NCBI GenBank assembly: GCA_025451235.1
Contig: JANWKT010000037.1
Span: 1 to 60,669 of the forward strand
DNA from: Flavobacteriales bacterium
Lineage (GTDB): Bacteria > Bacteroidota > Bacteroidia > CAIKAF01
Direction of reading: 5' to 3'
Length of the DNA stretch: 60,669 nt
Within the stretch, counting starts at the first letter, position 1, and every line of letters starts with the position of its first letter. The position numbers were made by a program, and so were the translations under genes. The notes under the pieces are model-generated. The model was given only the letters and a program-made list of their open reading frames with translations, did not search any database and was not told where the DNA came from. Below, piece by piece: positions 46,286 to 49,219 of the stretch.

Positions 46286-47071
46286 CTAAAAATATCCTTT
46301 ATGCCAAAGGCTTAGAAAATCCATAGAAATGGCTACACATACATGCATGCATGCACCCAATACGATTGATTTATATCGGTAACTTAAGGTCCCCAGAACA
46401 ATACCTGCAATAATTGATCCCATGCATTCAGGCAAAGGTTTTCCAAAATGGATCATGCAATAGGGAACTACCATGGCAAAAATACTATATACCCCCAACT
46501 TCTTCTTCAGCCCGTGTACCATAAATCCGCGGAAGAAAAACTCCAATGTGATGAACTGCAATACATAAAAGATCTCCCAAATGATCATTTTTCCCATGAA
46601 ATTCTGTCGGGGTGGTTCATAAAACGGATAGGTGAACTGAAACCCTTTCCCATACGAAACAATTAAAACGCAAGGCATCATGATGCAAAGCATGACTGCG
46701 TAAATCGGCCATCCCTGTAACGAACCTTTAAGCTTGAATCCATAATCAGCTAGACTTTCCCTCCAAACTAACTTAATAACGCAAGCAGGGATAACAAAAT
46801 AAAAGAAACAGGTCCAGCTGCTCCAGTAGATGAGTTGATGCAGGCTATAATCTTCGTGACGATAGAGCCATATCGTGAGGTTTTTGCCTGCATCTTCATG
46901 GAATACATTTAAAATCGAAGTAAAATATAAATAACTGGAAGAAGGGGTAAGATACGTAATACCGGCCAGGCAAAGGGCCGAAATGATGAATACCCAAAAC
47001 GGTCTTCTATCCTCTTTTGTTTTAGGGAAAAAATCTTTGAGCCAAGAAAAAGAGGAAAAAAATGTCCGCAC
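46286..47071 (-). CDS. CPBP-family intramembrane protease-like protein (atypical active site)
   Basis: A 261-residue protein with about eight membrane segments and the CPBP/Abi layout. The first motif, normally EExxxR, is L176-E177-FFF-R181 (FITLEFFFRGF), so the first glutamate is leucine. The second motif keeps a histidine (YCMIHFGKPLPE). The last is HVCVAISMD, where the usual asparagine four residues after the histidine is alanine. CPBP proteins include CAAX prenyl proteases and bacteriocin-immunity proteins. The changes suggest weakened or lost proteolysis, though CPBP subfamilies vary. Confidence 0.8.
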   Translation of the reverse strand: MRTFFSSFSWLKDFFPKTKEDRRPFWVFIISALCLAGITYLTPSSSYLYFTSILNVFHEDAGKNLTIWLYRHEDYSLHQLIYWSSWTCFFYFVIPACVIKLVWRESLADYGFKLKGSLQGWPIYAVMLCIMMPCVLIVSYGKGFQFTYPFYEPPRQNFMGKMIIWEIFYVLQFITLEFFFRGFMVHGLKKKLGVYSIFAMVVPYCMIHFGKPLPECMGSIIAGIVLGTLSYRYKSIVLGACMHVCVAISMDFLSLWHKGYF

Positions 47072-47099: not shown

Positions 47100-47132
47100 G
47101 AGAACCAAGAGTTAAGAACCAAGAAGCAAGAC
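47100..47132 (+). repeat. Left imperfect inverted repeat of the four-helix-bundle element
   Basis: It contains three AACCAAG/GCAAG-type units. The inner 17 bases (47116-47132) match the reverse complement of 47522-47538 with one mismatch. Together with the right repeat it brackets one small gene. Confidence 0.6.
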
Positions 47133-47140
47133 AATTCATT

Positions 47141-47500
47141 TCAGTCAGAGGAAATATTGTTTCTAAATGTAAATATCATTTTTTGCACTTCAGTTATTTC
47201 GCTTAAAAGTTTATTTAATAATTCTGTGTCCCCATATTTTCTGCGTTCACAAATCAATAAATGAGTTTCAAGCTCGTAGGCAGAAGATAACGAGGTAGTA
47301 AGGAATTCTGCAAAATGCTTTTTTGTCCTTTTCCCAGATCCTTCAGCGATATTCGAAGGTATTGAGCAGGAGCTTCTGTTTAATTGGTCGATTAGATTAA
47401 ATCGCTCAGATGCAGGTAAACTCAAACAATAACTAAATGTCCAATCTGTAACATCCATAGATCGCTGCCAAATAAGCAGATTTTTAAAATTATGCGCCAT
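47141..47500 (-). CDS. Four-helix bundle protein (23S IVP / Avd-like)
   Basis: A 119-residue helical protein starting MAHNFKNLLIWQRSMDVTDW and containing LIDQLNRSSCSIPSNIAEGSGKRTKKHFAEFLTTSLSSAYELETHLLI, the conserved core of the four-helix-bundle family first found in 23S rRNA intervening sequences and related to Avd of diversity-generating retroelements. In Avd this fold is pentameric and binds nucleic acid and reverse transcriptase. No reverse transcriptase, variable repeat or rRNA gene is nearby. The gene sits alone between inverted repeats rich in CTTGGTT units, suggesting a small mobile unit. Molecular function is unproven. Confidence 0.88.
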   Translation of the reverse strand: MAHNFKNLLIWQRSMDVTDWTFSYCLSLPASERFNLIDQLNRSSCSIPSNIAEGSGKRTKKHFAEFLTTSLSSAYELETHLLICERRKYGDTELLNKLLSEITEVQKMIFTFRNNISSD

Positions 47501-47521
47501 ACTTAACTACAAACATTTTTA

Positions 47522-47552
47522 GTCTTGGTTCTTGGTTCTAGCATCTTGGCTC
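47522..47552 (-). repeat. Right imperfect inverted repeat of the four-helix-bundle element
   Basis: Reverse complement of the left repeat at 47100-47132: the innermost 17 bases have one mismatch and the outer part matches in units with short gaps. It ends 6 bases before the stop of the M49-like gene. Confidence 0.6.
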
Positions 47553-47557
47553 TTTCT

Positions 47558-49219
47558 TCACTTCAATCCTAATACATCTTTTCCTTGCTCAAACACCACA
47601 TCCACCGGAATGTTTTTTGCATCCAATCTATCAAGATCAGCCTGAAGCTCTTCTCCGATCTTTCCTTTTTCTTTCACCAGTTTATCCACCCCGGCATAGT
47701 CACCATCTCCTTGAAGGGTAAGGATCAGTGTGCTTAGGGAGGTCATGGCATCTTTCATTTTATCGAAGTTCACTTTGTACTTTCCATTAGACCCTCTTTC
47801 AAAGGCTCCTTTTTCTTTAAAATAATTAAAGCGGATCATATTAGCTACTCCATGCGCTTCCCCAGCACCAAATCTTACGCTCCGAAAAATGCCTGCAAGA
47901 AAAGTAACATAGAACTCTTCCAACTGTCCTTCAATTTCGCCCATTTTATGCAACTCAGTGATCATATATAATCCAAGAATGTCGGCCTTTCCTTCCTCAA
48001 GTGCCGAAGCATGGTCCTTTAAGGCTTCTCTTACCGTTCCTTTACCATTGATCGTATTTTTGATCCCCAGCCCATGAGCCACTTCGTGGAACATAGTTGT
48101 TGAGAAGAACGCATCGAAATTGATCAATTTCAACTGCTCCGGATCTATTAATTCCTCAGCGATCGGCATCATGATCTTATCGAATTTTGCACGCATTACG
48201 TTTTTAAGTTGCAACCTTCTGGAACCATATTTTACATGTACCTCTTCGTCGTTGGGTAAATTAATGGCAATCGTTTTACCTCCTGAATTACCTTCTCCTG
48301 CATAATATACCACATCGTATGCATTCAAATCAGCTTTTGATCCTGTTAAAGATGGTTTGTATTTTTTATCCACAGGAAGACCTTGTTGCAGATCAGGAAG
48401 CATGGCAACATATTTTTCCAATTTTTTGCTCCACTCCATATCTTTTATCAAAACGTATGCCTCGAAAGAGGACCGATAACCATACAATGCATCTTCATAG
48501 GTTTCAATAGGTCCAACTACAAAATCAATTTTGTTGGTTTTCATTTCCATCCAGGCAATATCACTTGCCTGGTATTCGTCGCTCAGCAATGCTTCATGCC
48601 TTAAATGCAGGTATTTATTCAGGCCTGGATCATCTGCAAACTGCGCTGCTTGCTTAATCAACTCTGCTGCCTGCTCCAATTTTGCTTTATAATATTCACT
48701 GTATTTGATCAGCTTCAACTTTCCTCCTTCATCTCTTCTTACTACACTATACAGTCCTTTCTTGCCAGGTTCTTTCCAGTTTTGGAATTCAGTGGTATCC
48801 ATATCCGTCGGGTAAAAATTAGCTCCCTTAGGCTTTACTCCATACCCTTCTATAAAAGGTTTGTTATCATCCAGTCTATCCCATGGACCATAATTGTAAA
48901 TGGCGAATTGTTTTAATTTTTCATCTTTTATTTTTGCCAGAAACTCCTCCTTCGGTTCTCCCAATGTCTGTTCCCAAAACAATTCGTCCATGATTTTGGC
49001 TGCATCAATTAACAAAGGGATCATTTTTTTTTCATTCTCTGTTAATGCACCCATATCAGCCTCCAGCCTAACGGTGGTATATTTTGATAATAATAGATCC
49101 TGAGGGCTTTTTTGTTGAGTTGAATCCTTTGGATCTGCTGTGCCGGTTTTCTTTTTATTACCACAGGAAGCCAGCAATAGGATGGTACAGCCTAAAATAA
49201 AGAGTTTTTTAGTTCGCAT
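47558..49219 (-). CDS. M49-like zinc peptidase lipoprotein (dipeptidyl-peptidase III family)
   Basis: A 553-residue lipoprotein (lipobox LLLASCGNK, Cys19). The zinc motif is H378-E379-V-A-H382 in FHEVAHGLGIKNTI, and the third ligand comes from EEGKAD (408-413), the M49 second motif. DPP III enzymes usually have a six-residue HExxGH; the five-residue HExxH form seen here is known from some bacterial members. Spacing between the two motifs (about 30 residues) is like that of Bacteroides enzymes. It probably removes dipeptides from short peptides at the periplasmic or outer face of the cell. The lipid anchor is unusual for a family best known in the cytoplasm. Confidence 0.82.
   Translation of the reverse strand: MRTKKLFILGCTILLLASCGNKKKTGTADPKDSTQQKSPQDLLLSKYTTVRLEADMGALTENEKKMIPLLIDAAKIMDELFWEQTLGEPKEEFLAKIKDEKLKQFAIYNYGPWDRLDDNKPFIEGYGVKPKGANFYPTDMDTTEFQNWKEPGKKGLYSVVRRDEGGKLKLIKYSEYYKAKLEQAAELIKQAAQFADDPGLNKYLHLRHEALLSDEYQASDIAWMEMKTNKIDFVVGPIETYEDALYGYRSSFEAYVLIKDMEWSKKLEKYVAMLPDLQQGLPVDKKYKPSLTGSKADLNAYDVVYYAGEGNSGGKTIAINLPNDEEVHVKYGSRRLQLKNVMRAKFDKIMMPIAEELIDPEQLKLINFDAFFSTTMFHEVAHGLGIKNTINGKGTVREALKDHASALEEGKADILGLYMITELHKMGEIEGQLEEFYVTFLAGIFRSVRFGAGEAHGVANMIRFNYFKEKGAFERGSNGKYKVNFDKMKDAMTSLSTLILTLQGDGDYAGVDKLVKEKGKIGEELQADLDRLDAKNIPVDVVFEQGKDVLGLK

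Follow-up and report, generated by a model that had tools for sequence, protein, structure and literature searches.

A four-helix-bundle gene between inverted heptad repeats forms a widespread insertable cassette in bacterial operons

Introduction

In the DNA analysed here, a 60,669-nt contig of a Flavobacteriales bacterium (JANWKT010000037.1; the window), a small gene for a four-helix-bundle (4HB) protein stands between two protease-like genes and is bracketed by inverted repeats. This raises the question of whether gene and repeats form one unit that enters host operons, how general such a unit is, and what might move it. An earlier note had suggested that the gene moves as its own cassette, perhaps using enzymes from elsewhere. 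We therefore analysed the locus, its counterparts in relatives, and 272 loci of the same protein family (PF05635).

Results

The cassette in the window and its protein

The cassette (47101..47553, reverse strand, 453 bp), delimited by its inverted repeats and by empty sites, lies between two host operon genes: upstream, a gene for an M49-family peptidase-like protein (47558..49219, reverse strand), whose stop codon is 4 nt outside the arm, and downstream, one for a CPBP/Rce1-like intramembrane protease (46286..47071, reverse strand; open reading frame and profile matches). Both neighbours were matched by profile, in agreement with the location proposed earlier, and the M49, 4HB and CPBP genes share one direction. 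The upstream arm of the 4HB gene (47522..47553, reverse strand) reads, in the sense direction, as the units AGAGCCA, AGATGCT, AGAACCA, AGAACCA and AGAC, and ends 21 nt before the ATG; the downstream arm (47101..47132, reverse strand), inverted relative to the first, reads on the forward strand as AGAACCA, AGAGTTA, AGAACCA, AGAAGCA and AGAC, and a TRF array (47101-47131) falls within it. The arms, tandem 7-nt units of the AGAACCA/AGAAGCA type, are 32 nt long and 81% complementary, and their inner 18 nt, AGAACCAAGAAGCAAGAC and AGAACCAAGAACCAAGAC, differ at a single base. The imperfect bracketing repeats, the single inner mismatch and the unit of about 450 bases free of any other gene (no further open reading frame of at least 60 aa lies between the arms) had all been described in the earlier note and were recovered here.

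As arm score we used the local alignment of the 250 nt upstream with the reverse complement of the 250 nt downstream, with a threshold of at least 14. The window cassette scored 18.5, a value reached or exceeded in 2/1024 displaced pseudo-cassettes (at least 14 in 8/1024). A period-7 scan of the window returned three stretches (11772, 40391 and 47518), the first two of low complexity. The cassette lies between the M49 and CPBP genes and not in a 23S rRNA gene, and no Rfam family reached its gathering score anywhere in the window.

The 4HB gene (47141..47500, reverse strand) encodes 119 aa with matches to PF05635 (110.2 bits, cut-off 33.8; 7.4e-32) and TIGR02436 (107.4 bits, cut-off 24). Foldseek comparison of its AF2 monomer model (pLDDT 95.7) identified a four-helix bundle of the type of 2gsc, the Xanthomonas S23p protein XCC0516 (TM 0.92, 29% identity), followed by 2rld (up to 0.81) and Avd (4dwl, TM 0.76-0.78), which places the protein in the S23p/Avd fold. 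The cassette protein is under purifying selection (median dN/dS 0.11 in the 22 pairs with finite dS out of 38 pairs at 70% protein identity or more). PF05635 occurs in 120/149 sampled Bacteroidia genomes, with up to 23 copies per genome, and could thus weigh heavily on how operons are built and annotated.

Some family members look different. A cluster of near-identical PF05635 genes in one relative (L078, L081 and L085 at G013:C14:30596-33952; the three compared are 96-98% alike), with the fragments L089 and L090 nearby, has no clear arms and represents a different sub-lineage, which may be domesticated. Larger variants of 156 and 150 aa (L006 at G000:C39 and L082 at G001:C249) also stand without clear arms, and past the L006 gene a longer repeat occurs in tandem.

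Further copies and the breadth of the architecture

The window's genome holds seven PF05635 genes, six of them with inverted arms (scores 15.5-23.5) and one, L006, without; each of the six armed loci has its own, different heptad-like unit. Since the arm sequences differ between resident copies, the ends are alike in form and not in sequence, and terminal repeats are not conserved among the seven loci, unlike those of an insertion sequence or MITE. The expectation of further copies with the same ends in this genome thus held for the arms, present at six of seven loci, but not for the heptad, which differs at each.

Matched inverted arms (score at least 14) were found in 188/272 PF05635 loci, counts that are not independent owing to near-duplicate loci, chiefly viral contigs (e.g., L179, L180, L181 and L206); a clear inverted repeat was missing in the other 84. 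By set, arms were present in 54/80 loci from named genomes (the best 80 of 587 retrieved with the motif SIP[SAT]NIAEG), 92/128 from Bacteroidia (28 search loci plus 100 from a best-first list, which biases this set to strong family members), 16/27 from the window's own family (fragments L087, L089 and L090 excluded), 6/7 from cyanobacterial plasmids and 20/30 from viral contigs. L208 and L209 were not re-found by the profile, and L220, L221 and L223 were positioned by profile match. The threshold was reached in 3/397 and 8/1024 displaced windows, in 7/400 mismatched arm pairs and in 0/27 genes of a single control family, ParE (30 loci fetched, of which L398, L401 and L402 were left out). The named loci above threshold come from Alpha-, Beta-, Delta- and Gammaproteobacteria, Acidobacteria, Planctomycetes, Treponema, Clostridia, Cyanobacteria, CPR and Bacteroidota. 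No 23S-located member occurred in this sample, in which a motif scan of the loci found no 23S motif and one 16S motif (L156).

The pattern is real and far larger than the earlier note described. Among the literature matches listed, with preprints and most subscription journals outside the scope of the search, no report joined the S23p/PF05635 family to heptad repeats, and this widespread cassette class is apparently undescribed.

Heptad rhythm and predicted RNA pairing of the arms

Across the 188 armed cassettes (median unit length 470 nt), arms have a median length of 31 nt (interquartile range 25-37), which corresponds to 4-5 units. Their self-match is.635,.631,.582 and.51 at lags of 7, 14, 21 and 28, against.23-.35 at the remaining lags tested within 1-27, and lag 7 is the best in 154/188. 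The upstream arm, whose median distance to the ATG is 27.5 nt, is C-poor in the sense direction (C.107, G.308; G exceeds C in 171/188), a strong strand asymmetry, and a stop trinucleotide is present in 156/188 arms.

Structure prediction for the operon mRNA of the window pairs the two arms round the open reading frame, with a duplex of -38.5 kcal/mol; like an IVS element, the cassette has terminal inverted repeats that can pair into a stem enclosing its S23p open reading frame. Arm RNA duplexes have a median of -36.7 kcal/mol against -8.5 for mismatched arms, a difference that describes stability and is not independent support, since arms were picked for complementarity. At 55 orthologous-site pairs, the match between the arms of one cassette exceeds that between orthologues in 38, which suggests that the two arms of a cassette change in concert, in a comparison that the selection of arms for mutual match biases in this direction.

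The heptad follows the protein

In 54 pairs of cassettes with proteins at least 60% identical and no flank homology, arm similarity is.416 against.236 when shuffled, and it falls to near the shuffled level once protein identity is below 35%. Label permutation gave the same picture for pairs at 55% or more (.355 against.212, 137 pairs) and within named genomes alone at 50% or more (.267 against.221, 186 pairs), the observed mean being reached in 0/60 permutations in each case. Cassettes of the AGGCACA type occur in Nitrospirae (L126, between cas1 and cas2), Desulfobacteraceae (L131, between genes for an ABC-2 permease and a Wzt-type ATPase) and KSB1 (L148), and no flank homology was found among them. 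Gene and heptad travel jointly between phyla; the correlation itself can also be explained by shared descent without binding.

Placement in operons

When both neighbours could be assigned by simple ORF calls (178 cassettes), 130 cassettes were sense, 22 antisense, 19 convergent and 7 divergent (sense versus antisense p 7.6e-20, kinship ignored), with median gaps to the neighbours of 57 and 46 nt. Host sites include carA|carB in Xanthomonas codiaei (L170, with arms of GGGACCG heptads), nuoC|nuoD in Bosea, cas1|cas2, glutamine synthetase|DAO, and cas6|cas4 on plasmids. In Flavobacterium, a cassette lies between a guanylate kinase gene and a cytidylyltransferase-like gene named nadD from its context; the available part of a report on F. 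columnare describes adjacent guanylate kinase, four helix bundle protein and nicotinate mononucleotide adenylyltransferase genes (PMC5524665). Three cassettes stand in CRISPR operons (L126, L091 and L092), once at cas1|cas2 and twice at cas6|cas4. Loci without clear arms are equally sense-biased (54 versus 8), so the bias may reflect selection for expression.

Empty sites

The M49 locus was sought in 60 relatives, the window's genome included; 34 have M49, and 16 loci (its own and the 15 next best) were inspected. The M49 and CPBP genes are adjacent without a cassette in five relatives (G001, G008, G010, G011 and G013), with 7 nt from the M49 stop to the CPBP start in G001, a member of the same genus. 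A 4HB gene was found in 0/15 of the relatives' M49 loci, one of which (L048) reaches a contig end 17 nt past the match.

Cyanobacterial plasmids gave full and empty versions of further sites (records fetched, source counted: TraM|hyp 6/29, integrase|hyp 3/41, nrdB|nrdA 1/2 and cas6|cas4 2/14). TraM|hyp is full in Nostoc C052 and N. edaphicum, empty in Nostoc C057 plasmids (94.6% and 94.2%) and UHCC 0926 (81.1%), and carries heptad arms with no annotated gene between them in ATCC 53789 (L358). Integrase|hyp is full in Calothrix and empty, with a 3-nt gap, in Tolypothrix, Aulosira and N. carneum (90-91%); nrdB|nrdA is full in N. edaphicum, where the cassette is antisense, and empty in Calothrix NIES-4105 (85%); cas6|cas4 is full in Anabaena 90 and has a 23-nt gap in Nostoc 0302 (72%). 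Heptads are absent from the examined empty plasmid sites. By eye, roughly 10-45 bp of the spacer present at empty sites is missing from full ones. No target-site duplication was seen by eye at three sites, in a comparison limited by the lost spacer and by flanks that agree at only 85-95% between full and empty versions; a clean target-site rule is not readable from these junctions.

Two further gaps hold other inverted-repeat sequences. In the TraM|hyp gap of the Nostoc sp. C057 plasmid p057_H (L359), 7-nt inverted arms of the TTCAAAA type surround other sequence with no annotated gene. The cas6|cas4 gap of Dolichospermum UHCC 0315A (L348, 98.8% flanks) was rejected as an empty site: its 245 nt, at the position of the Anabaena 90 heptad cassette, are occupied by another inverted-repeat element, about 220 nt long with GTAGGTTGGGTT ends, and either element appears to supply the cas6 stop codon.

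Gene and repeats are thus well supported as a cassette, one insertable unit, and the empty sites expected of it exist, at M49|CPBP in relatives and on cyanobacterial plasmids; the opposite picture, one position conserved in all relatives with no other repeat pairs, was looked for and does not apply. As for the earlier proposal that the small gene moves as its own cassette, empty sites and the joint travel of gene and heptad support an insertable unit, but these are footprints: in the loci examined, we saw no transposition event and no genome that carries the identical cassette twice.

Heptads outside cassettes

Several heptads also occur away from 4HB genes. In the window's genome, the GAAGTCC type has 15 matches, of which 4 belong to the L007 cassette, and its reversed pattern has 1; the corresponding figures are 22 (1 in the L005 cassette) against 6 for the CGTTATC type and 4 against 0 for the foreign heptad AGTAATT. 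At 10/13 examined heptad places, a hairpin of score at least 14 forms within the 110 nt to either side, a span that could not hold the gene. The CAAGAAC type occurs at several genome places outside cassettes; with one mismatch allowed, it is not enriched (57 matches against 48 reversed), and the evidence for it lies in the hairpin arrangement. Hairpins of the CAAGARN type (L008-L015 and L029-L034) are at G000:C7:191873-193002, C20:244682-245625, C14:155667-155750, C28:156784 and C44:17606; several are nested in larger TTTTAATA...TATTAAAA or GGGCGGC...GCCGC palindromes, and some are paired about 0.9-1 kb apart.

Discussion

A probable selfish cassette with a proposed recognition protein

For an architecture that recurs across phyla with a period of 7, a cassette-specific unit, sense placement in tight gaps and empty sites, the reading that we consider probable is a selfish, IVS-like cassette of about 450-500 bp, in which the 4HB protein would recognise the heptads of its own unit and the arms would pair with each other once the operon is transcribed. 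The arms would form a stem of about 30 bp round the open reading frame, as in 23S rRNA intervening sequences, and cleavage of this stem by a dsRNA nuclease such as RNase III would let the host operon tolerate the insert. Read-through transcripts would yield the 4HB protein, which as a pentamer may bind its own heptads, each subunit taking up about one of the 4-5 units of an arm; as a result, protein and heptad would co-evolve. The protein-heptad complex may then label the cassette ends, so that an enzyme acting in trans can copy or transfer the unit. Heptad recognition by the protein, excision at the RNA level and the trans-acting enzyme are the steps that we infer. Where the gene decays or is deleted, heptad hairpins would remain as solo copies, and these could plausibly have given rise to the heptameric intergenic repeats known from cyanobacteria, xanthomonads and others.

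Alternative explanations

The 4HB protein might instead be a TRAP-like RNA-binding autoregulator, with the upstream heptads as leader site and the downstream arm as anti-binding or terminator strand, now immobile as a unit and spread by ordinary recombination and horizontal transfer of the neighbourhood. The C-poor upstream arm a median of 27.5 nt before the ATG, the purifying selection on the protein and the tracking of protein by heptad would all fit. We nevertheless regard this as unlikely: related cassettes lie in different phyla without flank homology, and cassettes are inserted into canonical operons, a combination that needs unit-wise movement and is not readily explained by ordinary recombination.

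Another candidate is a Y1 transposase (HUH, IS200/RAYT-like) that would recognise the hairpins and mobilise the cassette in trans, as for REPINs. Y1_Tnp is found in 103/120 Bacteroidia genomes with PF05635 and 10/29 without (OR 11.5, p 9e-8, uncorrected for phylogeny and repeat load), and copy numbers of the two correlate across the 120 genomes (Spearman 0.48). To our knowledge, Y1 transposases make no target-site duplication, which agrees with the sites examined. Against this, 17/120 PF05635 genomes have no Y1_Tnp, two of these with 9 and 12 PF05635 copies; a scan of 20 Y1 loci, of which contig ends truncate two, found no heptad hairpin beside the gene, and the 17-nt palindrome at one locus (L370) has its best lag at 7 with a self-match of only 0.40; the GTAG-type REP foot is not enriched in arms. 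We therefore treat the Y1 transposase as a lead and not a finding, and rate mobilisation by it as improbable. An rve transposase was rejected as partner, with no association in 149 Bacteroidia genomes (62/120 with PF05635 versus 13/29 without, p 0.54). The earlier suggestion of an outside transposase thus keeps the statistical association with Y1_Tnp and loses both rve and, in the 20 loci scanned, a heptad hairpin beside the Y1 gene.

Copying of the cassette RNA by a reverse transcriptase (DGR, retron or group II type) that works together with the Avd-like protein would suit the Avd fold and the sense placement in transcribed gaps, but it is very improbable, and the reverse transcriptase that had been proposed as outside enzyme was dropped: RVT_1 shows no association in the 149 genomes (42/120 with the gene versus 11/29 without, p 0.83), and 19/32 genomes with at least 8 PF05635 copies have no RVT_1 match. 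In the window's genome, the single RVT_1 match is on contig C13 and the window is contig C37, where no reverse transcriptase stands beside the 4HB gene, whose neighbours are M49 and CPBP. That the heptads are ordinary simple-sequence repeats or terminators merely tolerated by 4HB genes, for which the over-representation of heptameric repeats in many bacteria speaks (available text of PMC4692102), is hardly credible given arms that match across about 400 bp and track the protein, empty sites without heptads, and arms in 8/1024 shifted windows and 0/27 genes of the one control family.

Wider meaning

If the selfish cassette is the correct reading, it may, more speculatively, belong to a superfamily of transposase-less elements whose ends are a 7-nt rhythm read by their own ring-shaped 4HB protein, one subunit per heptad. 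Protein and repeat would then co-evolve across phyla, the arms would be kept matched by concerted evolution, the heptameric repeats of cyanobacteria, xanthomonads and Bacteroidota would be debris, and the 23S rRNA IVS would be a special case; we consider this wider picture possible, though doubtful. A family widely annotated as 'four helix bundle protein' gains a testable role and is tied to heptanucleotide repeats, and the cassettes may account for the origin of many short bacterial repeats. They also offer a way to approach the long-standing problem of the origin and movement of rRNA intervening sequences with an S23p gene, and lead us to expect that nature holds many protein-repeat pairs, each matched in specificity.

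Comparison with known systems

The cassette arms resemble known heptameric intergenic repeats, which in cyanobacteria are called STRRs, in being 7-nt tandem repeats in intergenic positions. In the available parts of the reports, such repeats are GGGGA(C/T)T in Nostoc, GGGAATC in Xanthomonas and TAACTGA in Beggiatoaceae (PMC4692102, PMC4679880); those of Xanthomonas often form inverted pairs, of which two genomes have 70 and 75, and there is generally no association with mobile elements (PMC4692102). Cassette heptads bracket one gene family, whereas the known repeats are described without a link to S23; the term 'S23' is absent from the available texts of PMC4692102 and PMC4679880.

The 23S rRNA IVS of Coxiella burnetii, as far as the available text describes it, is a 444-nt element (428 after end mapping) with a 28-bp stem, an S23p open reading frame and a role for RNase III; its origin and mobility are unresolved, and its S23p is probably not made in vivo (PMC4990558; see also PMC2672173, available in part, for further context). 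It shares with our cassettes a unit of about 430-450 nt, terminal inverted repeats and a single S23p-family open reading frame. Unlike the IVS, the cassettes lie in gaps of protein operons, have tandem-heptad ends that vary per cassette, and encode a protein under purifying selection. Avd of the diversity-generating retroelements (4dwl, 8ubb) is a pentamer of the same fold; in contrast to Avd retroelements, the cassette has no reverse transcriptase, and its protein is 11-12% identical to Avd. XCC0516, the closest structural match, is a homopentamer as cited in the available part of PMC4990558.

REPIN/RAYT systems and MITEs are the remaining point of comparison. They are short inverted-repeat units without a transposase of their own, with solo copies and with ends conserved within a family. 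The cassettes are likewise short inverted-repeat units without their own transposase and have solo copies, but their heptads vary, and each cassette carries a protein gene.
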